This document shows positions 1 to 37,419 of a stretch of 37,419 bases of DNA, in pieces. This stretch comes from a virus. The stretch spans positions 1 through 37,419 of the IMG/VR virus record IMGVR_UViG_3300030090_003419; one strand, written 5' to 3'. A program made the position numbers and the translations under genes. Within the stretch, counting starts at the first letter, position 1; each line of letters starts with the position of its first letter. A model generated the notes under the pieces. It worked only from the letters and a program-made list of their open reading frames with translations. It had not been told where the DNA came from and searched no databases.

Positions 1-148
1 TTTGCAGAAGTAAATGGGTTAAGCAGTTTTAGAAAATACACAGGGAACTCAAGCTCAAATGGAACTTTTGTGCACACAGGTCACAGACCTTCTCTAATCA
101 TTATAAAAGAATTAGCGACAGAAGATTGGGTCATTTATGACACTCAGC
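1..148 (+). repeat. Left copy of terminal homology inside the fibre gene
   Basis: Positions 1-148 align without gaps to 37272-37419 with 23 mismatches, mostly at third codon positions. Within it, 58-116 is a perfect 59-bp match to 37329-37387. The reading frame is the same in both copies. See the fibre genes and the finding on the window ends. Confidence 0.95.
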
Positions 149-4331: not shown

Positions 4332-5429
4332 TTACGTTCCAGTGTCAAACATTTTAGTTGCGGCGCCGAGGGCTAATCTGGCTCTCTCGGCCTTGCGTGT
4401 ATATAGCTCTGCCTCTTTGATATCCAACCAACCAAAGAGCGCCATAAGCTCATTCGCGGTGGCCCCGTTTTCAGCGGCATGAGTCGCCGCGGCCTTCCGG
4501 ACTCCGTGACAAGAATAACCTTTTTCGATCCCGGCTCTACGCGCATCTTCGACAAAGCGTTGGCCAAAACCTTTGACGGTAAACGGCATACCAAAGCTCG
4601 TAATGCAAAATGTAATCTCGCCGGTTTTTGTGGCTGATAAAACTTCTTCAAGCGGCGGCACAATTCTGACAATCGTGGGGTCTTTGGCGTAACGATCCCG
4701 CCCTTTATATTCTTTCCATTGCAAAATTCTGTTACCACCGCGTGTTCCGATATGCGGTGGGCCAAGTCTGTGTGCGTCTGAAATTCTCGCTCCTGTGTAA
4801 TATAAGAGTTTGAGCATAAGGTGTGACATTGTGCCGAGCGGGTAAAAGCCAAGGAATTGTGCAATCTGCTCACGGCTCCAAATTTTAATACCGTCGGTTT
4901 TCGTGTTGAGCTGTTTGACAACTTGCCGAACTCGCGCATCGCCGCAGGGGTTTGTGTCAATCCAGCCCCGCAGATTTGCAAATTCCAGCATGTATCTAAT
5001 ATTTTTGTAACGACTTTTTGCCGCAATCGGATAACCTTCAGCGTTCTTTGCTTCGATAAGCTCGTTGATTTCTTTGAATGTAAATTTTCTAAAATCTTCG
5101 TTGGCGATAAGCGAAAGAAACTGCTTGATAATCCCTGTCCGATTTGTTTGGGTCTTAACGTTAAGTTGTTTAAATTGTGCAGACGCCTCGTATTGGCTCC
5201 AAAGCCACCGCCAAGTGAATTCTTTTTGAAGTGGCTCTGCCAAACTACCGAACCGCTCCAGGCACTCCGAATACTCGGCAAAGAAGGCCGCGCTTCCTGG
5301 TGCGGCATGGAGGCGTTGGTTTGTTTCATTGCCATTAACATCGACGCGCCGGAAGTAGATATAGACGCGCCCACCCCGACCGGTTTTTGTAGTGACATAT
5401 GGCAGTTTAGTTTTTTCCATTGCATCCAT
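4332..5429 (-). CDS. int: Tyrosine-type phage integrase
   Basis: 365 residues. The N-terminal half holds an arm-binding-like region and a SAM-like core-binding domain (about 65-165, with QTNRTGIIKQFLSLI). The catalytic domain shows R215 in YYTGARISDAHRLG, K242 in WKEYKGRDR as likely beta-hairpin lysine, H308 and R311 in SCHGVRKAAATHAAE, W334 in LFGWLD at the second-histidine position, and the nucleophile Y343 in AELYTRKAE. This is a complete active site, so it should be functional for integration and excision. The start is ATG 5429 or ATG 5420; no strong ribosome site decides. A tRNA-like attP follows its 3' end. A 350-codon open frame in +1 (5425 down to 4373) lies inside it, treated as a shadow. 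Confidence 0.92.
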   Translation of the reverse strand: MDAMEKTKLPYVTTKTGRGGRVYIYFRRVDVNGNETNQRLHAAPGSAAFFAEYSECLERFGSLAEPLQKEFTWRWLWSQYEASAQFKQLNVKTQTNRTGIIKQFLSLIANEDFRKFTFKEINELIEAKNAEGYPIAAKSRYKNIRYMLEFANLRGWIDTNPCGDARVRQVVKQLNTKTDGIKIWSREQIAQFLGFYPLGTMSHLMLKLLYYTGARISDAHRLGPPHIGTRGGNRILQWKEYKGRDRYAKDPTIVRIVPPLEEVLSATKTGEITFCITSFGMPFTVKGFGQRFVEDARRAGIEKGYSCHGVRKAAATHAAENGATANELMALFGWLDIKEAELYTRKAERARLALGAATKMFDTGT

Positions 5430-6084: not shown

Positions 6085-6789
6085 CTATTTTTTTCGTCGC
6101 AACTCCTCGTATCTCAATCTTAAGTTTCGTATCGAACTAAGGCTCCAATGCGTCTTGTCCCGCCTGTTACGGATGCCGCGGGCTTCAAGACCAGCCTTAA
6201 TTTTTACAAGTGTGTCGCACCCGTATTTTTCTAACTCAATAATAATTGGCCCAACTTCACGCGCAAATTCGTCGGCACTCTGCTCATTACCTTTGACGCC
6301 ACGTTTTTGAATTTTTGTGACGTTTGGATTGCCAAGCTCGACGCCGCGTTTCTTGGCTTGTGCCAGGGCATTGGTGACGCGCTCTGAAATGATTGCACCG
6401 TCACGCTCTGCCGCGTTGGCTAAATTCTGTAGTAGATACCGTGTGTTAATCGGATCGCCCATAGGAACATCAGCCGCAACAATTTCCAGGTTGCTTTCAA
6501 GCAATCGTGTTAGCAGGGGGAGATTTCGCCCTAGGCGATCTGTTGTGGCGACAATCAGTTTGGCGTTTTGTGAGCGGCACATCGCTATAGCTTTTTTTAG
6601 CTCTGGTCGCTTGGCGTCCGACTTCTTTCCGCTCTCGGCTTCAGAAAACTCTCCAACCAATTCCCAATCGCCGCCGTTCAGGTAATCGGACACACGCTGT
6701 TGCTGTGCGTCAAGACCTAAGCCGCTTGCTCCCTGTCGCTTAGTGCTGACTCTGTAATACGCCACAAATTTACCAAAGTGCGGCGTCAT
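6085..6789 (-). CDS. Serine recombinase (resolvase/invertase family)
   Basis: 234 residues. The N-terminal catalytic domain begins VAYYRVSTKRQGASGLGLDAQQ, with R13 and the nucleophile S15, followed by the active-site arginines in TTDRLGRNLPLL (R85, R88). The long E-helix with IISERVTNALAQAKKRG follows (about 133-150). The C-terminal part (about 175-230) resembles a DNA-binding recombinase module ending in WSLSSIRNLRLRYEEL. It is longer than small resolvases but far shorter than large serine integrases. It may act as a resolvase for dimers, an invertase or a second site-specific system. A ribosome site AAGGGA precedes ATG 6789, and a possible promoter lies at 6855-6883. Confidence 0.85.
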   Translation of the reverse strand: MTPHFGKFVAYYRVSTKRQGASGLGLDAQQQRVSDYLNGGDWELVGEFSEAESGKKSDAKRPELKKAIAMCRSQNAKLIVATTDRLGRNLPLLTRLLESNLEIVAADVPMGDPINTRYLLQNLANAAERDGAIISERVTNALAQAKKRGVELGNPNVTKIQKRGVKGNEQSADEFAREVGPIIIELEKYGCDTLVKIKAGLEARGIRNRRDKTHWSLSSIRNLRLRYEELRRKK

Positions 6790-7080: not shown

Positions 7081-7463
7081 GTTCTAAATCCAAACGCAAA
7101 GGATCAGGGTTTGAGCTTGAGATTGCCCGGCGCCATCAGACTTTAGGGATTGCCGCGAACAAAACCCCGTTGTCCGGAGCGCTCGGGGGCAAGTATGCGG
7201 GCGATGTTCAAATCGCGGGAATGATCGCCGAGTGTAAGCGGCGCAAGAGGGGCTACACAAGCCTCTACAAAGCACTCGCTCAAGGTGGCGGGTCAGACGT
7301 TTTGTTTGTTCGAGATGACCACCAGGACACGCTCGTAGTGCTTCCTTGGGACACTTGGGAAGCGATGCTTGGGTGGTGTGATCTCGCAAAGAAATTCCCA
7401 CACCGGGAATCCGAAGTCAGCGGAACTGACATGCACAAAGGAGAAAATGAAAATGGTATTTGA
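7077..7463 (+). CDS. Holliday-junction-resolvase-like PD-(D/E)XK nuclease
   Basis: 128 residues. Motifs: GSGFELEIARRH (E13 or E15), then TPLSGALGGKYAGDVQIAGMIAECKRRKRG, with D43 and E52-x-K54 forming the catalytic core, then DVLFVRDDHQDTLVVLPW as a closing strand. This layout is typical of phage and archaeal-type Holliday junction resolvase-like nucleases that process branched replication and recombination intermediates before packaging. It is coupled to the RHH gene upstream and overlaps the SSB-like gene downstream, so it belongs to the replication operon 6910-9877. It is one of three PD-(D/E)XK proteins in the genome. Confidence 0.75.
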   Translation: MSSKSKRKGSGFELEIARRHQTLGIAANKTPLSGALGGKYAGDVQIAGMIAECKRRKRGYTSLYKALAQGGGSDVLFVRDDHQDTLVVLPWDTWEAMLGWCDLAKKFPHRESEVSGTDMHKGENENGI

Positions 7464-8007
7464 TGCTTTTGAAGATGAAACAGAGGGCTACTTTCAATGG
7501 GGTGCTCAGGATAAAAGTTGGAAAGTTGATGGCGATCTTGTTGCTCTCAGCGATCTTAAAAAATTTGCTATTGATCCTCACTCTATCAAAACGGGCTATG
7601 GTCATCTCGCCGCAGGGCAAAGCCCGGAGTGGAAATGGGCGGAGATAGCAGGGACAAAAATTGATCGCCCTGGTGAAGATTATAAGCCCGCGGTTCATGT
7701 TGATGTTTTCTTAACAGAAAAAGGTGGCTCTCCACATGAAGGTTGGCGACCCTGGACAACAAACGGCGCGGGTGCGCGTGATGCGATAAAAGCTATTTGG
7801 AAAGATGTTCATGAAGGCGCGGCGAAAAACGAAGGCAAGATTGCAGTTGTCAAAGTTGCCGGTTGCACTGAGAAAAAATACAAGAACGGGGGTAGCACTA
7901 GAATCCCTACGCTCGAAGTTGCGGGCTGGATTAAGAAGCCCGACGCACCCGAACCTGTAGCACAAGTCGAAGCGGCTCCCGCCGAGGACGACGACGACCT
8001 TTTCTAA
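7447..8007 (+). CDS. Probable single-stranded DNA-binding protein
   Basis: 186 residues from ATG 7447, preceded by AAAGGAG; an ATG at 7453 is also possible. The body is beta-rich and moderately charged, with WKVDGDLVALSDLKKFAIDP and PAVHVDVFLTEKGG. The end is a disordered linker (PDAPEPVAQVEAAPAE) followed by a very acidic tip, DDDDLF. An acidic tail closed by an aromatic residue is the hallmark of phage SSBs such as T7 gp2.5 and of bacterial SSB, where it recruits partner proteins. It is placed between a junction nuclease and the primase-helicase. No direct OB-fold motif can be proven by eye. Confidence 0.65.
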   Translation: MKMVFDAFEDETEGYFQWGAQDKSWKVDGDLVALSDLKKFAIDPHSIKTGYGHLAAGQSPEWKWAEIAGTKIDRPGEDYKPAVHVDVFLTEKGGSPHEGWRPWTTNGAGARDAIKAIWKDVHEGAAKNEGKIAVVKVAGCTEKKYKNGGSTRIPTLEVAGWIKKPDAPEPVAQVEAAPAEDDDDLF

Positions 8008-8008
8008 G

Positions 8009-9877
8009 ATGCAAGGGTGGGAGACACACATCCTTGAAGTCGCAAAGCATTTCAAGGGAAAGCCAAGTCATGTCCGTGGCAATGAAGCCAGATGGGGTAC
8101 CCACGGCTCCTTCAGCGTTGATATTGCCAAGGGCGTGTTCACCGACCATGAGTCTGGTGAAAGCGGCGGCGTTGCAGATTTAATCCGTTCTTGTCTCCCA
8201 GATGGGAATAAACCTGGCGCCGTCGCAACTTTTATTGAGGAATTTTTAGACGAACCAAAGTCGGAGATGGCCGATGAGGTTAGCGCGTTTGCCGCCCCGC
8301 AATATGTTGAGGCGGAGTATCATTATCTAAACGCCGCGGGTGAGCCATATTTAAGAGTCGAGCGCCACGCCCCACAAAAAACATTTCGGCAATATTTACC
8401 GGACGGACGCCCGCCGACCAGCGACCCGGATTTCAAACCCGTTCCCTATCGTTTAGAAAAAATTCTGAGCCGCATTAAGGCGCCCGTCTTTATTGTCGAA
8501 GGGGAAAAGGACGTTCACAACTTGGAAGCGTTTGGACTGCTCGCCACATGCAATCATGGAGGGTCAGGCAAGTGGACAGACATTCACGCGGCATATCTCG
8601 CAAATCGCAAGGTGGTGGTTATCCCGGACAACGACGATCCAGGGGACAAACACGCAAAGCAAGTCATTAAAACATTAAAAGGCATTGCGGCAGAAATAAG
8701 GCGCGTTGATTTACCAGGGCTATTGCCTAAAGGAGATGTGTCGGATTGGATCGAAGGCGGCGGAAATAAGGAACAGCTTGTCGCCCTCGTTAAATCCGCA
8801 CCGCCGATCACCCAGGATGATCTTGACTTGCATTATAGGGTTATCACATTAGGCGATCTAATGGAGCGGGAGCCGGTGCCGTGGCTTATTCCGAATTACA
8901 TTCCGGAGCAAAGTCTTGTGGCTATTTATGGCGATCCGGGAAGCTACAAAACTTTTCTTACCCTGGACATGATGCTTTGTGTATCGCACGGCTACGACTT
9001 TCACAAAATGTCAGTGGATCAGGGCTTGGTGGTGTATGTCGCGGGCGAGGGGGTTGGCGGATTAAGAAAAAGAGTTGGCGCCTGGCACGAAGCAAATGAA
9101 CCCAATGTCGCCAATGCACAATTTCTATTAATTGAGGAGCCGGTGCCGTTGCGTGAGGAGGGCGCGGTGGATCATTTGATTGAGGACATTGAGGCACTAA
9201 GAAATGGACGCGATGTTAAATGTATTGTGTTCGACACGCTTGCCCGGTGTATGAGCGGTGATGAAAACTCGTCAACAGACATGGGCGATGCAATCAGGGC
9301 AATGGATATTATTAAGGGTCATTTTGGTGCGGCGATAATTGCTGTTCATCACCAAGGCAAAGATTCCGGGCGCGGCTTGCGGGGAAGTTCAGCCCTTCTC
9401 GGCGCCCTTGATGTTGCGTTGCAGTGCAAAAAACACGACCAGCACCTTGAAGTTGTGACTCAAAAACAAAAAGACCATGAGCCAGCCGAACCGCAATATT
9501 TTGAAGCGCAGTTATGTAGCTATCAGCAACACGCGCTCGATGATCCCGATTCTTCACTAGTTCTCGTTATGGCAGACGAAAAACCCAATCTCGCTACTAA
9601 TCTCAGCCAGCCGCAAGCAAAATGCCTCAAGGCGTTGCAAAATGTATTGGTAGAGTATGGGGAGCGGGACAACCCCGCCGTTGCTAAGTTCAATGTGTCC
9701 TGGCCAACGGTTGACCAGAATTTATGGGAAGCGGAATCTTTGAGTATGTCGTTAGCCGATGGCGAGGCAGAGAGCCAAAAGAAGGCATGGAAACGGGCAG
9801 TCAAAGGGCTTGAAAAGAAGGGGCTTGTAGCGGCGCGGAATGGGCGCGTATGGCTGGTTAAACACGCCGCCGATTAG
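8009..9877 (+). CDS. Primase-helicase (TOPRIM plus RecA-like ATPase)
   Basis: 622 residues. N-terminal region: ARWGTHGSFSVDIAKG followed by GVFTDHESGESGGVADLI, the DnaG-like entry segment, without a visible zinc-binding cysteine set. TOPRIM: VFIVEGEKDVHNLEAFG (about 158-175) with the catalytic Glu, and VVVIPDNDDPGDKHA (about 203-217) with the Asp-x-Asp. ATPase: Walker A GDPGSYKT (about 309-316) and Walker B-like CIVFDTLARC (about 405-414), then AIIAVHHQGKDSGRGLRGSSAL. This is a RepA/AAA_25-type RecA fold. It would prime and unwind the phage replication fork. No phage DNA polymerase is present, so the host replicase probably follows. It ends the rightward operon, tail to tail with the leftward cluster. 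Confidence 0.85.
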   Translation: MQGWETHILEVAKHFKGKPSHVRGNEARWGTHGSFSVDIAKGVFTDHESGESGGVADLIRSCLPDGNKPGAVATFIEEFLDEPKSEMADEVSAFAAPQYVEAEYHYLNAAGEPYLRVERHAPQKTFRQYLPDGRPPTSDPDFKPVPYRLEKILSRIKAPVFIVEGEKDVHNLEAFGLLATCNHGGSGKWTDIHAAYLANRKVVVIPDNDDPGDKHAKQVIKTLKGIAAEIRRVDLPGLLPKGDVSDWIEGGGNKEQLVALVKSAPPITQDDLDLHYRVITLGDLMEREPVPWLIPNYIPEQSLVAIYGDPGSYKTFLTLDMMLCVSHGYDFHKMSVDQGLVVYVAGEGVGGLRKRVGAWHEANEPNVANAQFLLIEEPVPLREEGAVDHLIEDIEALRNGRDVKCIVFDTLARCMSGDENSSTDMGDAIRAMDIIKGHFGAAIIAVHHQGKDSGRGLRGSSALLGALDVALQCKKHDQHLEVVTQKQKDHEPAEPQYFEAQLCSYQQHALDDPDSSLVLVMADEKPNLATNLSQPQAKCLKALQNVLVEYGERDNPAVAKFNVSWPTVDQNLWEAESLSMSLADGEAESQKKAWKRAVKGLEKKGLVAARNGRVWLVKHAAD

Positions 9878-9883
9878 CTGGTT

Positions 9884-10102
9884 TTATATGTCATCCCATT
9901 GGCGCACCCAAGTCTGGCATTTTTTTATATCGTCAAAAAATTCTTGTGTGCCGTCACCCAGATATTGAGCATGCCAGCATGGGCTAAACGGTGTCAACGT
10001 GCCAGCCATATCTTCCGGCTTTGCAATAAAACCAATACTAAAACCCTGAACTACATTTGTGCGAATAGCCTTTAAGGTTACGGATTTTTGCCACCGTGTC
10101 AT
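9884..10102 (-). CDS. Small hypothetical protein (early cluster)
   Basis: 72 residues from ATG 10102, chosen for the GGAGGA ribosome site six bases upstream; longer readings lack one. It overlaps the previous stop by four bases (ATGA). The sequence, with VQGFSIGFIAKPEDMAGTL, WHAQYLGDG and C/W-rich ending KKCQTWVRQWDDI, matches no family I know. It is the last gene of the leftward cassette and stops six bases from the primase-helicase stop, with no clear terminator between. Confidence 0.6.
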   Translation of the reverse strand: MTRWQKSVTLKAIRTNVVQGFSIGFIAKPEDMAGTLTPFSPCWHAQYLGDGTQEFFDDIKKCQTWVRQWDDI

Positions 10103-10284
10103 TTCTTGTCCTCCATTTGTTGGTTTGTTAAGTCCTGGATAATTTGTGATAGCCAAATAATTACAGCTTCATCTTCTTTTGGTGCGTCTGTTTGAGCTTC
10201 ATGCCAGCTTTTCTTTTGCTCAAGAGCCGTAATGATCGTGTCCAAATAATCGGGGTAAACTTCAATTTTGATTCTTTCACTCAT
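10099..10284 (-). CDS. Small acidic hypothetical protein (early cluster)
   Basis: 61 residues, ribosome site GGAGGA five bases before ATG 10284. It is predicted to be largely helical and acidic (LDTIITALEQKKSWHEAQ, DEAVIIWLSQIIQDL). It overlaps both neighbours by a few bases. No family is recognised. Acidic small proteins in phage early clusters can be inhibitors of host enzymes or DNA mimics, but nothing in the sequence proves this. Confidence 0.6.
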   Translation of the reverse strand: MSERIKIEVYPDYLDTIITALEQKKSWHEAQTDAPKEDEAVIIWLSQIIQDLTNQQMEDKK

Positions 10285-10502
10285 TACTTGTCCTCCAGTT
10301 CTTTAATAATTAACCCAATCTCGCCGCCCTTGTTCTCCAATAACCGGATTAGTTCGGAACGGAAGCGGTCGGGTATGTCCCGGTTACCACTAGCAAAGCG
10401 TTGTATTGAGCGTGGATTGACGCCCAGCGCCTCGGCCAGTGGGTGATGCCAACGCTCGCCAAATAATGCGGCGCCAGCTTTTTTAAATAGCTGAGGTGTC
10501 AA
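10284..10502 (-). CDS. Cro-like helix-turn-helix regulator
   Basis: 72 residues. GERWHHPLAEALGVNPRSIQRFASGNRDIPDRF is a compact helix-turn-helix with the conserved A-x-x-L-G-V, R-S-I-x-R and SG-x-R-x-IP features of small alphaproteobacterial and phage HTH proteins. The C-terminal helix (RSELIRLLENKGGEIGLIIKELED) could mediate dimerisation. It lies inside the leftward cluster of tiny genes and overlaps its downstream neighbour by one base. It may regulate this cluster or the divergent promoter at 12283-12331. Confidence 0.75.
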   Translation of the reverse strand: MTPQLFKKAGAALFGERWHHPLAEALGVNPRSIQRFASGNRDIPDRFRSELIRLLENKGGEIGLIIKELEDK

Positions 10503-10784
10503 CTAGACCTCACCATCAAAATAAGCCCAACGATGGTCGCCGGCATCCATAACATATAGATTACCCCGTGCTTTACCTTTGCGGCTTTGTTGATTTTCCC
10601 ATACATAGAGAATACCAGGTGGCGTATTAACTTTTTCAAATGCTGGGCCGCTCGCCTCAATAAAATGCTCTAAAGTGTCAGCCGTCCACACAACATCGTC
10701 TGGTTCACATACCCAACCAAGTTCGTCAACTTCGTGACCGTTCCAAACGCTTGTAGCGTCACAAAAATCCTTTTCTGTTATCAT
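10503..10784 (-). CDS. Small hypothetical protein sharing its first nine residues with another gene
   Basis: 93 residues, ribosome site GGAGGG seven bases before ATG 10784. It starts MITEKDFCD, identical to the small membrane protein at 11739-11843, and the DNA match covers the ribosome site as well. The rest is Trp- and acid-rich (DVVWTADTLEHFIEASG, PPGILYVWENQQSRKGKARGN, RWAYFDGEV). No family is recognised. It is the first gene after a 103-bp gap holding a hairpin. Confidence 0.6.
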   Translation of the reverse strand: MITEKDFCDATSVWNGHEVDELGWVCEPDDVVWTADTLEHFIEASGPAFEKVNTPPGILYVWENQQSRKGKARGNLYVMDAGDHRWAYFDGEV

Positions 10785-10797
10785 TTCTTTGCCCTCC
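10757..10797 (-). repeat. Copy 1 of a 41-bp translation-start repeat
   Basis: This stretch covers the ribosome site, start codon and first nine codons (MITEKDFCD) of the gene ending at 10503. It matches 11816-11856 with about four mismatches. Beyond the repeat the two genes are unrelated. Confidence 0.8.
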
Positions 10798-10864
10798 TAA
10801 TTATACTTTATCTAAGTTTTGCAATTTGGCTACCTCATCAGGCCTGAGCCGCCACGCCCAAGCG

Positions 10865-10880
10865 ACGCCCCGAAGGGCGT
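10865..10880 (-). terminator. GC-rich hairpin downstream of 10888-11163
   Basis: On the minus strand ACGCCC-TTCG-GGGCGT forms a six-pair stem with the very stable UUCG tetraloop, eight bases after the stop of the 91-residue gene. It is not followed by a U run on that strand. On the plus strand TTTCGGCTTTATTT follows, so as a classical intrinsic terminator it fits rightward transcription better. It lies in an unusually GC-rich island in a 103-bp gap with no gene. Confidence 0.45.
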
Positions 10881-10887
10881 TTCGGCT

Positions 10888-11163
10888 TTATTTGCTTATA
10901 GCTTTAAGTGCCTTTGGATTTCCGTATTTTAGAAAAATGGGATCAATGACTGCATCGTATTCGTGAAATAATGCAATCAAATCTGGATCATCTGGAGCTA
11001 AAAAACCAATTGCGTCGTGCGGTAAAAATGAGCCGCATTGACCACTCCCCTCAATATCGTAATATTCCAAGCAAATGTGCCAACAACCAATGTCATAAAA
11101 TCCTAATTGTTTGGCATAATCTGAAGTAGGGTAGGCGTAACTTATAGCTTTTAATGTTTTCAT
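10888..11163 (-). CDS. Small hypothetical protein (early cluster)
   Basis: 91 residues from ATG 11163, ribosome site AAAGGAA upstream. It is rich in aromatic residues (GFYDIGCWHICLEYYDIEG) with FLPHDAIGFLAPDDPDLIALF in the middle and IFLKYGNPKALKAISK at the end, probably a compact alpha/beta fold. No family is recognised. It lies in the leftward cassette, separated from the downstream gene by the hairpin gap. Confidence 0.6.
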   Translation of the reverse strand: MKTLKAISYAYPTSDYAKQLGFYDIGCWHICLEYYDIEGSGQCGSFLPHDAIGFLAPDDPDLIALFHEYDAVIDPIFLKYGNPKALKAISK

Positions 11164-11178
11164 TGTTAGTTCCTTTCG

Positions 11179-11358
11179 TTAAGTATGGGAATAACCGTCC
11201 TTTTCGATGCCAATCAACATTCCGCAATATTCGACCATCACGCAGTCCCACCCGGACTGTACTGAGCGCCGAAATTCAAAATAAGATTTTGGTTTTGGCC
11301 AATCGCGGTCGTAGATAGCCTTCAATGCGATTTGTTGCGGTTTGTTTAAATAAATCAT
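11179..11358 (-). CDS. Small hypothetical protein (early cluster)
   Basis: 59 residues from ATG 11358, chosen for GGAGGG seven bases upstream and for the four-base ATGA overlap with the preceding gene. The sequence has LNKPQQIALKAIYDRDWPKP, then WDCVMVEYCGMLIGIEKDG. The pattern KPQQ-x-ALKA-x-Y-R-x resembles a helical start seen in other short phage proteins, but I cannot name a family. Confidence 0.6.
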   Translation of the reverse strand: MIYLNKPQQIALKAIYDRDWPKPKSYFEFRRSVQSGWDCVMVEYCGMLIGIEKDGYSHT

Positions 11359-11738
11359 TGTGCGGCCCTCCAAAGTTCTTCGCAGGCATCATCAACGCCC
11401 ATCTTGTCATCATAAAAGCCATAGCTCGCACTATCGCCCCACCAGGCGCCTTTGACCTGATTGTTGCGGGTGTCAATCCTGATGTCTGGGCCACCAAAAC
11501 TAACCAGGATTAGGGCGCCCAGATAATCGCCAGACTTCGAGATAACATATTCAATATCTAAAGCGTCTTTGATGTAGTCGAAGCCGGACTGCTGTTGATC
11601 TTTATAATCGTCACAACAATTATTGTCCCAAGTCTCGCTATCGCACTCCGGGCAACGCTCATATTCAACACCTTCAGTAATTTCCTGGGCGATGCGATGA
11701 CATGTTCTGGCTAATTGTTCTTTGCATGTATCAGTCAT
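11355..11738 (-). CDS. Conserved phage hypothetical protein with cysteine cluster
   Basis: 127 residues, ribosome site AAGGAGG before ATG 11738. Residues 29-42 hold CPECDSETWDNNCC, possibly a metal-binding knuckle. The C-terminal half (DIEYVISKSGDYLGALILVSFGGPDIRID, then VKGAWWGD and DDACEELW) is a pattern I recall from short proteins in many phages and prophages: Y-x-I...VSFGGP-x-I-x-IDT...V-x-x-WWGD...EELW. Its function is not known to me. It is the longest gene of the leftward cassette. Confidence 0.65.
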   Translation of the reverse strand: MTDTCKEQLARTCHRIAQEITEGVEYERCPECDSETWDNNCCDDYKDQQQSGFDYIKDALDIEYVISKSGDYLGALILVSFGGPDIRIDTRNNQVKGAWWGDSASYGFYDDKMGVDDACEELWRAAQ

Positions 11739-11843
11739 TCAGCGGCCCTCCTTGTTTATAAATAAAGTTAAAAATAGAAATATTGCGGGGGCGCTTACTA
11801 TGGTTAAAGCGATAACGTCGCAAAAATCCTTTTCTGTAATCAT
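11739..11843 (-). CDS. Tiny membrane protein
   Basis: 34 residues from ATG 11843: MITEKDFCD, then a membrane-spanning stretch VIALTIVSAPAIFLFLTLFI and NKEGR. Its start abuts the stop of the upstream gene (11844) and its stop abuts the next ATG (11738), so it fits the operon exactly. The first nine residues equal those of the 93-residue protein at 10503-10784. The upstream purine run is GGGGGG rather than a perfect ribosome site. A single-helix toxin-like or exclusion role is possible but unproven. Confidence 0.45.
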   Translation of the reverse strand: MITEKDFCDVIALTIVSAPAIFLFLTLFINKEGR

Positions 11844-11856
11844 TTATTTGCCCCCC
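11816..11856 (-). repeat. Copy 2 of a 41-bp translation-start repeat
   Basis: Matches 10757-10797 (about four mismatches) over ribosome site, start codon and nine codons. It suggests that a start module was duplicated and fused to a different downstream sequence. Confidence 0.8.
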
Positions 11857-12038
11857 ATTTGAGAAAGTAAAAATAGAACTTCTTTTTGCATGTAGCGTGT
11901 GCGGGTTCGGTCGCGTGGGCCAAAATAAAGAACGGCGCGTATTTCGTTTTTGACTGTCTGGGGTTGGTCGGCGGTGATACCGGCGTCCCAGAATGATTGC
12001 GCCCATTGATGTGGGTTGGGGTGATTGTGTCTGTTCAT
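11844..12038 (-). CDS. Small hypothetical protein (early cluster)
   Basis: 64 residues, GGAGGG seven bases before ATG 12038 and a four-base overlap with the upstream gene. The sequence has HPNPHQWAQSFWDAGITADQP and then QTVKNEIRAVLYFGPRDRTRT, ending MQKEVLFLLSQMGGK. This is probably a small helical protein. A different 114-codon frame covers the same bases but lacks a ribosome site and is treated as a shadow. No family is recognised. Confidence 0.6.
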   Translation of the reverse strand: MNRHNHPNPHQWAQSFWDAGITADQPQTVKNEIRAVLYFGPRDRTRTRYMQKEVLFLLSQMGGK

Positions 12039-12229
12039 ATGACTGCCCTCCCAAAATCAATATTTGGTTGAGCAATCACAACCTCAAAACCAAGCTGGCT
12101 AATTTGGCGCAAGGTTTGAGTGGTTAAAGTTTTAGAATTTGCAATCCTGGCAAACGCTTCGGCATGTTTGCAAGCTGGATAATAAAGCTCATTGCCGTAA
12201 ACATTCTTAACTTCAATTTCTATCTTCAT
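12035..12229 (-). CDS. First gene of the leftward early cluster, hypothetical
   Basis: 64 residues, strong ribosome site AAAGGAGG seven bases before ATG 12229. It begins with a beta-type segment (MKIEIEVKNVYGNELYYPAC), continues with HAEAFARIANSKTLTTQTLRQISQLGFEV and ends VIAQPNIDFGRAVI, probably a small alpha/beta protein. It lies about 47 bases downstream of the expected start of transcription from the promoter with a perfect TATAAT at 12283-12288, so it is probably the most strongly expressed gene of the cluster. No family is recognised. Confidence 0.65.
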   Translation of the reverse strand: MKIEIEVKNVYGNELYYPACKHAEAFARIANSKTLTTQTLRQISQLGFEVVIAQPNIDFGRAVI

Positions 12230-12356: not shown

Positions 12357-12547
12357 GGACAACCCGGACAAGTCACCCGGACAAGTTGTCCGAAACTATG
12401 GTTTCCAGATTAGGGAGCAATATCAATGGCTTACAAGCAATTTAAAAAAAGCCGGACACGCACCGGACAAAATTCGGACAAAACCCCGGAAACCGATGGA
12501 CGCTGGACAGACACGGACACACCTTTAGGTGTCCTGTCCAGATGTCC
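12357..12547. other. Iteron-like GGACA repeat array, candidate replication origin
   Basis: GGACA occurs in direct orientation at 12357, 12366, 12379, 12454, 12465, 12476, 12505 and 12515, with degenerate copies near 12488 and 12498. Inverted copies (TGTCC) lie at 12387, 12530, 12535 and 12543. Most copies read CGGACA, and several are 10-11 bp apart, one helical turn. The array starts just beyond divergent promoter B, runs into the beginning of the 198-residue gene, and lies some 450 bp before a replication-initiator-like winged-helix gene. This resembles lambda-type or plasmid-type origins. No A+T-rich unwinding block was proven, although 12331-12350 and 12440-12450 are A-rich. Confidence 0.5.
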
Positions 12548-13022
12548 CGAAGCAAAATTGTCTGAACTAGAAGATTTGGATTGCGTCGTTTTTGAAATAG
12601 AAAAGACCTGGGGCGTCGATAGATTGAGGCTGGAAGTTGATGATGAGCTGGGGGCGCGTTTTGATGCTCAACTGGAAAAGTTAAACGCGGCGATTGAATC
12701 CGACAACAAGCCCAAAATTAGAAAAGCCGCTAACGCAATGCGCCGAGCTTGGTGGGCGCTCGATGGTGCGGCAAGGGCGCAGGGTAAAAAACCGCCAGGT
12801 GAGGCGGTATGGGTTGGCAAACATCCGAACGGCGAAACTGTCTGTATTTATACTAATGCCGCGTCGATTGTGGATATTGAGGAACATCCCGGCGCTTTAA
12901 ATATCTCCGAGCTTGTGAAGTTCATACCGGCGGAAGTGTTGAAAGTGAAAAAAACATTTCCTGGTAGCAAGGTGTCCAAAGTTCAACAGAAATACGAGTT
13001 TGACGATGAAATCCCATTTTGA
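12426..13022 (+). CDS. Hypothetical protein, replication region
   Basis: 198 residues from ATG 12426, with GGGAG eight bases upstream. The first 45 residues are low-complexity and polar (KKSRTRTGQNSDKTPETDG), because the DNA there is the GGACA array. The conserved-looking body has helical segments (LEVDDELGARFDAQLEKLN and KPKIRKAANAMRRAWWALDGAA), followed by an EAVWVGKHPNGETVCIYTN strand pair. The protein ends acidic and aromatic, YEFDDEIPF. No family is assigned. Its position between a putative origin and an initiator-like gene suggests a replication role. The true start could be further downstream if the 5' end is purely the origin. Confidence 0.6.
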   Translation: MAYKQFKKSRTRTGQNSDKTPETDGRWTDTDTPLGVLSRCPEAKLSELEDLDCVVFEIEKTWGVDRLRLEVDDELGARFDAQLEKLNAAIESDNKPKIRKAANAMRRAWWALDGAARAQGKKPPGEAVWVGKHPNGETVCIYTNAASIVDIEEHPGALNISELVKFIPAEVLKVKKTFPGSKVSKVQQKYEFDDEIPF

Positions 13023-13677
13023 AAATAAACCGGACACGCGGCTTTATTCTATTATGCCCGCGCGAGCTATCCAGGACGACGCGTTGCATAGCACATCTTT
13101 AAGAGTGTTAGGGGCGCTATGTCTCCACGCTAATAAGTATGGCATTTGCTGGCCGAGTCGGGAAACAGTCGGGCGCCATGTAAGCCGTAAGCCGGTGACA
13201 ATTACGCGTCATTATAAGCGCCTTGTCGATGCGGGTTATTTGCGACGGCTACAAGGCCGCAAGTATCCAGTTCCACGCCGACAGCCGGGCAGATGGTACA
13301 CGGCAAGGTTTCAAGTGCTATACGAGGGCGCCGCAACGCCCATGCCGACCTATGAGCAATTCGCCGCACCCAAGCCGTTGGTGGTCGCAGAACTCGACGA
13401 GGCAATCCCGCAAGAGGATAACAATAAAAGTAAGGGGGTTAGGGGGATGAATACACAATCTCTCGCACAAGCATTTTGTGCCGGCGTGGCGGCGGCGTCC
13501 GGCCAGCATCGCATCCTAGACAACCAACTGGATGTTGCGGCGGAACTGGCGGGCAGTGGCGTGGAGCCTGCACAGCTTAGGGAATACGCCGAGCAGATGA
13601 CTGCCGAGCGGTTGGAGCAGGGAAGGTCAGCACCCCAAAATATAAAGCAGGTAGCGAACTGGGCGGGATTATTATGA
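13006..13677 (+). CDS. Replication-initiator-like winged-helix protein
   Basis: 223 residues from ATG 13006; a TTG two codons earlier is possible. It overlaps the previous gene. Residues about 15-75 form a helix-turn-helix of the HTH_36 type found in phage replication proteins: MPARAIQDDALHSTSLRVLGAL, NKYGICWPSRETVGRHVSRK, then PVTITRHYKRLVDAGYLRRLQG. After a variable linker the C-terminal part (about 155-223) is helical, with AQLREYAEQMTAERLEQG and NIKQVANWAGLL, like the helicase-loading end of lambda O-type proteins. It could bind the GGACA array upstream and recruit the primase-helicase. That link is inferred. Confidence 0.7.
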   Translation: MKSHFENKPDTRLYSIMPARAIQDDALHSTSLRVLGALCLHANKYGICWPSRETVGRHVSRKPVTITRHYKRLVDAGYLRRLQGRKYPVPRRQPGRWYTARFQVLYEGAATPMPTYEQFAAPKPLVVAELDEAIPQEDNNKSKGVRGMNTQSLAQAFCAGVAAASGQHRILDNQLDVAAELAGSGVEPAQLREYAEQMTAERLEQGRSAPQNIKQVANWAGLL

Positions 13678-35502: not shown

Positions 35503-37419
35503 TGCCTGTAAGCTCACAATGGTTTGCCAATCCTGGCTCAACGTATGAGATAGATCAGTCTATTCGTTTTAACGATGACGATTCAGCCCAACTATCGAAA
35601 ACTTACTCTGGTGCGGGCAATCGTAAAACCGCCTCTATTTCAATGTGGATCAAAAGAGCCAACATCTCCGCAACGATGGATGTGTTCGGAGTGAACTCTA
35701 GCAATTTGGACACTATTAGATTCAATTCCAATGACACAATGATGATTCGCGTTGGAAATTCTGACAGCACAACAGATCGTGTTTTTCGCGATGTTGGAGC
35801 TTGGGGGCATTTGTTCATTGTGCGTGACACAACGCAGTCGACAAGCACGAACAGACTCAAAGCGTGGTGGAACAACGAAGCCCTAACTTTTTCAACTTAC
35901 AGTGTGCCTTCACAAGACACTGACACAGAATTTTTAAACGCTGTCATCCATCGTATCGGAACAGAGGGTGGGGGAGGCAGTCAATTTTTTGATGGCTACC
36001 TTGCAGAAATACACGTCATTGATGGAACAGCGAAAGCCACAACAGACTTTGGTGAGATTGACAGTGACACAGGGCAATGGGTGCCGAAGGCTTATTCGGG
36101 TAGCTACGGAACCAACGGCTTTTATATAGATGGCAGGGATAGCTCTGATCTTGGCGATGATGAAAGCGGCAACGGAAACGACTATGCAAGCAGTGGCTTG
36201 TCAACAGCAGATCAAGTAAGCGATTCACCAACTAATAACTTTTGCACCTGGAACGCAGTTGACGCGGGTTCTGGAACGCTGAGTGACGGAAATCTAGTCC
36301 TGGCATCAACGACAGATCGTTCTGGCACGTTTGCGATGCGTAGTGGTAAATGGGCGTGGAAGATAACTACAGCGGCTTCTGGTGCTTTTGGAATTGTGGC
36401 TGACAGTTTAACGGGAACTGAAACAACCTACAGTGCGGGTAGCGGTGAAGTTTTGGAATTTCAACTTGATCTTTCGGATGGAACATTAGAAGTGAGTGTG
36501 GATGGTGGGAGCTATTCAAGTGTTGCTTCCAGCTTGTCAGGCATATTTTTTCCACTAGCGAAAGCCGCTTGCACAGCAGATTTTGGACAGAGTGGTTTTA
36601 CCCGAGATGACACAACCTTTAACTATTTATCGACCAGCAGTTTATCGCCAGCAGTAGAAGATAGCTCAACCGCTTTTCAAACTACACTCTACACAGGGAA
36701 CGGGTCTACACAATCTATAACTAATGGCGGCAACAGTGACCTGCAACCAGATTTGATCTGGATAAAAAACAGAGATGCTTCAGATAGTAGTGTCATTACC
36801 GATGCTGTTCGAGGCGTCACAAAAATTTTAGCTTCTGATTCAAATAGTGCTGAAGCAACAGACGCGGACACAGTAACAGCATTTGCTTCAGATGGTTTTG
36901 CTTTAGGTGCTGATGATAAGGTCAATACAAACACCGAAAAATATGTCAGTTGGAACTGGAAAGAATCCGCAACAAATGGTTTTGATATTGTATCTTTTAC
37001 AGGCAATGCCACAGCCCGAACAATCTCACATTCGTTAGGGGTTATACCTCGGTTAATGATGGTCAAAAACTTAGCCGACTCTGATAATTGGGCCGTCTAC
37101 CATGCGTCGATGTCAGCCGACCCGCAGACCGATTATTTAAGTTTGAATACGAATAGTAATATTACAGACGATAGCACAGTCTGGAATGATACAGCCCCAA
37201 CAAGCTCAGTATTTTCTGTTGGCACAAGTAGTTTAACAAATGGAAATTCGGAAGCCATGATTGCCTACCTTTTCGCAGAAGTGGATGGCCTAAGTTCGTT
37301 TCGCAAATACACTGGAAACTCAAATGCGAATGGAACTTTTGTGCACACAGGTCACAGACCTTCTCTAATCATTATAAAAGAATTAGCAACTGAGGATTGG
37401 GTGATCTACGACACTCAGC
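35502..37419 (+). CDS. Tail fibre/receptor-binding protein, N-terminal part (3' truncated by window edge)
   Basis: 639 codons from ATG 35502, in the TGATG overlap with the previous fibre; the frame is still open at the window end. Residues about 40-200 look like a LamG/concanavalin-type lectin fold (ASISMWIKRANISATMD, then AWGHLFIVRDTT, FFDGYLAEIHVIDGTA). A SPRY-like segment follows (residues about 240-370). The rest is a long beta module of the kind found in marine-phage fibres: LQPDLIWIKNRDAS, DAVRGVTKILASD, YVSWNWKES, SLGVIPRLMMVKN, and FAEVDGLSSFRKYTGN. Its last 49 residues match the start of the window, where the expected ending continues. Combined length is about 704 residues. It is probably the receptor-binding fibre. 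Confidence 0.85.
   Translation, partial: MPVSSQWFANPGSTYEIDQSIRFNDDDSAQLSKTYSGAGNRKTASISMWIKRANISATMDVFGVNSSNLDTIRFNSNDTMMIRVGNSDSTTDRVFRDVGAWGHLFIVRDTTQSTSTNRLKAWWNNEALTFSTYSVPSQDTDTEFLNAVIHRIGTEGGGGSQFFDGYLAEIHVIDGTAKATTDFGEIDSDTGQWVPKAYSGSYGTNGFYIDGRDSSDLGDDESGNGNDYASSGLSTADQVSDSPTNNFCTWNAVDAGSGTLSDGNLVLASTTDRSGTFAMRSGKWAWKITTAASGAFGIVADSLTGTETTYSAGSGEVLEFQLDLSDGTLEVSVDGGSYSSVASSLSGIFFPLAKAACTADFGQSGFTRDDTTFNYLSTSSLSPAVEDSSTAFQTTLYTGNGSTQSITNGGNSDLQPDLIWIKNRDASDSSVITDAVRGVTKILASDSNSAEATDADTVTAFASDGFALGADDKVNTNTEKYVSWNWKESATNGFDIVSFTGNATARTISHSLGVIPRLMMVKNLADSDNWAVYHASMSADPQTDYLSLNTNSNITDDSTVWNDTAPTSSVFSVGTSSLTNGNSEAMIAYLFAEVDGLSSFRKYTGNSNANGTFVHTGHRPSLIIIKELATEDWVIYDTQ
37272..37419 (+). 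repeat. Right copy of terminal homology inside the fibre gene
   Basis: Aligns without gaps to 1-148 (125 of 148 identical), in the same codon frame. The centre, 37329-37387, is a perfect 59-bp match to 58-116. If the copies are overlapped, the fibre reading frame continues correctly to the stop at 345. If the ends are joined directly, the frame is lost. Confidence 0.95.

Follow-up and report, generated by a model that had tools for sequence, protein, structure and literature searches.

Replication origins are seldom annotated in environmental phages, and a tight cluster of GGACA pentamers at positions 12357–12547 of one viral genome raises the question of whether such repeats belong to an origin and, if so, which protein reads them. 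The genome is IMG/VR virus record IMGVR_UViG_3300030090_003419, analyzed here over its full 37,419 nucleotides (the window) and carrying integrase and structural genes. A tyrosine integrase (4332–5429) and a serine resolvase-type recombinase (6085–6789) are both encoded. The ends of the window (1–148 and 37272–37419) are 84% identical (125/148) and lie inside a tail-like gene running off both ends; the genome is perhaps circular, closed through a variable repeat.

The GGACA array and the gene overlapping it

A motif recount returned exactly the eight forward and four reverse GGACA copies that the initial annotation had reported within these 191 bp. A first iteron block (12357–12391) holds copies at 12357, 12366, and 12379 on the plus strand and at 12387 on the minus strand. 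After a 62-bp AT-richer spacer (12392–12453; 65% AT vs. 52.5% in the window), a second block runs through five direct copies on the plus strand (12454–12519; at 12454, 12465, 12476, 12505, and 12515) to three inverted copies on the minus strand (12530–12547; at 12530, 12535, and 12543). A dyad, ACACCT-TT-AGGTGT (12519–12532), marks the point where the repeats pass to the other strand, and the spacer contains an IHF-consensus site, TATCAATGGCTTA (WATCAANNNNTTR), at 12421–12433 on the plus strand. Spacings of 8–15 bp are frequent, and the repeat unit is (C)GGACA(A), a non-palindromic sequence of 5–8 bp in about 12 copies.

Across the window GGACA occurs 77 times (58.9 expected from shuffles), so that about 0.3 copies would be expected per 191 bp. 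Its local count of 12 is the highest of all 5-mers in the window, the runner-up being poly-A with 9, and at most six copies per 200 bp arose in 300 Markov simulations with the same dinucleotide make-up. The local enrichment that the initial annotation had proposed to check by a whole-genome count is thus confirmed, the array being denser than any other 5-mer cluster there; the cumulative GC skew, proposed alongside it, mostly tracks gene orientation and favors no decision on an origin either way.

The array overlaps residues 1–44 of a 198-residue gene, gene X (12426–13022, plus strand). A role as a protein-coding repeat was considered and ruled out: the GGACA copies within the X reading frame occupy all three frames, and residues 1–44 are poorly conserved (26/45 identical to the relative L003, vs. 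139/154 for the remainder), which argues that the repeats are maintained at the DNA level. X begins past the array in L011 and L019. The C-terminal tip of X, DDEIPF (12990–13022), has nearly invariant D, I, P, and F in a 42-sequence alignment, is kept in most of 78 homologues, and is very similar to the tip with which bacterial SSB ends, so that X may bind SSB partners. An AlphaFold model of X gave no PDB match at E ≤ 0.001.

The primase-helicase and arrays in related elements

The gene at 8009–9877 (plus strand), whose product we propose as the initiator, encodes a primase-helicase with a Toprim region and an AAA_25 (RepA/RecA-fold) motor (Pfam AAA_25, 6e-39; Toprim_2, 4e-5). Its AlphaFold2 model has a mean pLDDT of 88 and, in PDB searches, an overall T7 gp4/Twinkle-like fold, with the motor matching RSF1010 RepA (Z 23.7, rmsd 2.7 over 224 residues). 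The model ends in a winged helix of good confidence (residues 534–616; 9608–9856, plus strand), built from helices 534–550, 570–578, and 587–603 and strands 567–569, 607–610, and 613–616; it has no Pfam match above the cut-off, and Pfam has no family for the domain. We propose this domain as the iteron-binding one and predict its third helix, AESQKKAWKRAVKGLEK (residues 587–603; 9767–9817, plus strand), to be the recognition helix. The gene upstream of the helicase (7369–8007) ends in an acidic DDDDLF tail, and its counterpart in the CRP phages is annotated as an ssDNA-binding protein.

We found relatives as viral contigs via homologues of gene X and of the gene at 13006–13677, and scanning with the helicase yielded 80 loci. 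An array was scored when a single 6-mer recurred at least five times inside 240 bp directly 3′ of the helicase gene, with loci made non-redundant and 890 control windows drawn from the same loci. Arrays lie 3′ of the AAA_25 primase-helicase gene in 72 of 89 non-redundant loci, compared with 34 of 890 controls; at a threshold of at least eight copies, the figures are 49/89 and 0/890. Helicase loci with a weak array or none are L049, L050, L142, L151, and L157. The last three are helicase relatives that lack both X and the array and have a terminator-like hairpin 3′ of the helicase gene. Directly past the helicase stop, L128, L131, L116, and L124 carry longer units of degenerate sequence (CCATCCCACC/TCGCACC) grouped around a GATC-rich dyad, which the 6-mer count missed and which are probably the same element.

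A comparison among relatives, for which the initial annotation had suggested an alignment, places the array at the same position in all intact own-clade relatives, but the unit itself is not constant. The window and L003 have CGGACAA, L004 and L005 GGGACAC, L010 CGGACAAG, L028–L047 CGTGCGA, L011 and L019 a GCGCA type, L032 and L040 GGGACAGT, and L027 TGCGAAGG. The array lies between co-directional genes in relatives. In the window it stands 2.5 kb away from the helicase gene, with a leftward gene block (9884–12229, minus strand) in between; this block is missing in L004, L005, and L010, where the helicase gene ends directly at the array, whereas MW202711 shares the window's arrangement of helicase, leftward block, and then a GGGACA array.

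Named phages carry arrays after an AAA_25 helicase as well, built of repeats that are unrelated to one another. The units are ACTACAAA in Roseobacter phages CRP-811 and CRP-823, GTATAAA in CRP-831, and GGCTGGAAA in CRP-406; GCGTGACAA, GGCGGAGAT, and CGTTCCCA in Rhizobium phages 16-3, RHph_N65, and RHph_Y3_1, respectively; and TGGTTCA in Alteromonas phage XX1924, CGGTACA in Idiomarinaceae phage 1N2-2, and GGGGACATG in Salicola phage CGphi29. Arrays also occur in rhizobial prophages. A scan of GTDB genomes with the 16-3 helicase returned two rhizobial prophages; a scan with the HTH_36 alignment returned no relative. No comparable array was seen in MEP301, which has the nearest TerL and a distant HTH_36 homologue. 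In addition, arrays lie 3′ of RepA-family helicase genes on plasmid records. Two of these, from Escherichia coli and Klebsiella (L161 and L162), contain capsid genes and a short RepA-family helicase gene followed by AAGTGAG or GTGCGGCA arrays; both are probably phage-plasmids whose origin is of this type too.

The smaller elements of the window's array recur to different extents. Of 63 array regions, 34 have a dyad with an A/T loop and arms of at least 5, where 7.7 would be expected; such dyads often center on CCYTWARGG-like cores (exact in 21/62 vs. 1.3 expected). An exact IHF-consensus site is found in 12 of 74 array regions, with 0.9 expected from shuffles and a frequency of 1.7% in control windows, so that help from IHF at the array is plausible but not universal.

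Covariation of repeats and recognition helices

Between loci, recognition-helix similarity follows repeat similarity with a rho of 0.65 for the helicase (Mantel p 0.001) and 0.24 for the HTH_36 protein encoded at 13006–13677; within the GACA clade, the values are 0.25 (p 0.003) and −0.06 (p 0.70), respectively. A coarser first analysis had given 0.34 for whole 130-residue helicase C-termini vs. 0.51 for whole HTH_36 identity, and because those 130 residues hold a variable linker and tail, recognition helices were compared instead.

The second K of AESQKKAWKRAVKGLEK, at −2 from the W, covaries with the repeat sequence. The column at −2 from the aromatic residue is the decisive one: it holds K or R in 31/31 GGACA loci and in 0/16 non-GGACA loci, with Q accompanying TGACA and M accompanying GAACA and GCACA. 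On the helicase-core tree, repeat class and residue class change seven times each, always jointly. This column was chosen post hoc, so the covariation is strong and not a blind test; the fold model agrees with it, as do three loci retrieved once the rule had emerged, L166 (Pseudorhodobacter; GTGACA/Gln), L167 (Xanthobacter; GGGACA/Lys), and L164 (phage 1.076.O; CGGACA/Lys).

A natural swap is seen between CRP-823 and CRP-831, whose DNA is about 95% identical across the motor, 50–80% across the C-terminal domain and array, and again about 95% across X. Their X proteins are 93% identical and their repeats unrelated. CRP-811, which has CRP-823's repeat, keeps 90–100% identity across the stretch of C-terminal domain and array. 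The predicted binding domain and its sites thus appear to change together. CRP-831 also has a PAPS reductase gene inserted directly past X (L076, 4821–5624) that is absent from CRP-823.

Models of initiation and a possible wider class

That the GGACA array is part of the phage DNA replication origin, as the initial annotation had proposed, is well supported by its conserved position, its architecture, and its covariation with a DNA-binding domain. From the comparisons and the fold model, we consider it quite probable that 12357–12547 is the initiator-binding part of this origin, read by the C-terminal winged helix of the primase-helicase.

The initial annotation had assigned the reading to another protein, the product of 13006–13677 (plus strand), in the style of lambda O. 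Profile matches do make this protein HTH_36/O-like (Pfam HTH_36, 3e-9; phrog_270, 391, and 428), its gene lies 0.5 kb downstream of the array and co-occurs with it in many loci, and its whole-protein identity correlates with the repeats as noted above. We pursued it first as the array binder, but it is disfavored by arrays that lack the gene and by the absent helix covariation: no HTH_36 above the cut-off was found anywhere in 11 array-bearing annotated phages, nor an HTH_36 initiator in array-bearing L027, L032, L040 (a 34-kb record), and L041, and under a constant GGACA the recognition helix varies (TITRHYKRL, WVCRTMRIL, and TVSTHVGRL). Moreover, unit size and copy number are unlike those of lambda, the phage encodes its own helicase, and it is with this primase-helicase that the array tracks. 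It is therefore unlikely that the HTH_36/O-like protein binds the array and recruits a helicase. Extra DNA-binding proteins are common at origins and both genes flank the array in the window's clade, so the HTH_36 protein could use the array or dyad alongside the winged helix of the helicase in phages that have both; with no covariation of the HTH_36 helix in the GACA clade, we regard this two-component initiation as very improbable.

Binding by gene X, or a regulatory, partition, or packaging site in place of an origin, would fit an array that runs into the 5′ end of X and has a divergent promoter region nearby, and repeats with a dyad are compatible with an operator or centromere. Such readings seem distinctly improbable, because X barely differs between CRP-823 and CRP-831 despite their different repeats, X was not detected in array-bearing 16-3, N65, XX1924, and 1N2-2, relatives have the array between co-directional genes, and the constant partner of the array is the replicative primase-helicase.

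With the primase-helicase as initiator, we infer a sequence of events in which it would recognize the GGACA iterons through recognition helix 587–603. Several copies bound on either side of the AT-richer spacer would position the hexameric motor, perhaps with host IHF bending the spacer at 12421–12433; the strand switch at dyad 12519–12532 would set the two arms, and the dyad might in addition offer the primase part a hairpin. Melting would then give the motor single strands to load on, and both forks would be primed by the Toprim part, which would account for origin activity. In this scheme X and the HTH_36 protein probably assist the replisome as accessory factors.

Precedents for an origin bound by a helicase C-terminus, the most likely reading here, are PICI/SaPI Rep and P4 alpha, although the motor here is RecA-fold. 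In PICI/SaPI Rep and SCCmec Cch2, the origin lies immediately 3′ of the helicase gene, the iterons are short, differ between elements, and are bound by the C-terminal domain, and in PICIs two sets of them surround an AT-rich region (PMC7581432, PMC6092414). Similarly, the array is directly 3′ of the helicase gene in most relatives, the displacement in the window being that of MW202711, and blocks 12357–12391 and 12454–12547 surround the AT-richer 12392–12453. The PICI/SaPI-type helicases, however, belong to the DUF927 or D5_N/Primase_Cterm families (PMC7581432), and the present motor is a RecA-fold AAA_25 one, which whole phages as well as plasmids carry in fusion with a primase of Toprim or Prim-Pol type. 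In P4 alpha, a single polypeptide holds the primase, the helicase, and the C-terminal winged helix that serves the origin repeats (PMC4234260, referring to Yeo et al. 2002). Toprim_2 primase and modelled winged helix likewise share one protein here, but with a motor that is AAA_25 by Pfam and RepA-fold by PDB searches, and array position and repeats also differ. The helicase of P4 alpha is of a different, SF3-like class.

RSF1010 RepA shares the AAA_25 RecA-fold motor, putatively hexameric in the phage protein, and RSF1010 has an iteron origin with short hairpins for priming. Its iterons are bound by a separate protein, RepC (PMC4234260), whereas the putative iteron-binding domain here appears fused to the helicase. 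In lambda, the O protein binds four iterons (six in Stx phages) that lie within its own gene, each of them a 19-bp inverted repeat (PMC7466680). The array resembles them in lying beside an AT-rich stretch and overlapping a replication gene, with an O-like gene nearby; it differs in its 12 copies of a non-palindromic unit rather than 19-bp inverted repeats, and in occupying an intergenic stretch and the 5′ end of X, with the O-like gene starting at 13006. In the archaeal plasmid pRN1, the origin is just downstream of orf904, whose primase-helicase product has a winged helix at its C-terminus (PMC4234260), but it is a large stem-loop without iterons and the helicase is SF3. A literature search of incomplete coverage found no paper on iterons beside an AAA_25 phage helicase. 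By comparison with these systems, C-terminal iteron binding is known from other helicase families, and what differs here is the motor, an AAA_25 one carrying a putative iteron-binding domain.

On balance, we favor the existence of a class of phage and plasmid replicons, widespread but unannotated, whose RecA-fold (RepA/T7 gp4-like) primase-helicase would be its own origin recognizer, its winged helix reading clade-specific iterons 3′ of the gene, and domain and iterons forming an exchangeable cassette with a residue-to-base rule. Such a rule would make origins findable and their specificity predictable from sequence: a search just 3′ of the AAA_25 primase-helicase gene would locate origins in many phages and phage-like plasmids. 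The final 100 residues of the helicase would in turn predict the repeats read. A DnaB/RepA-type motor would then perform its own origin recognition, usually the job of a separate initiator, and the natural swaps of recognition domains suggest how related phages may keep their replicons compatible or separate.
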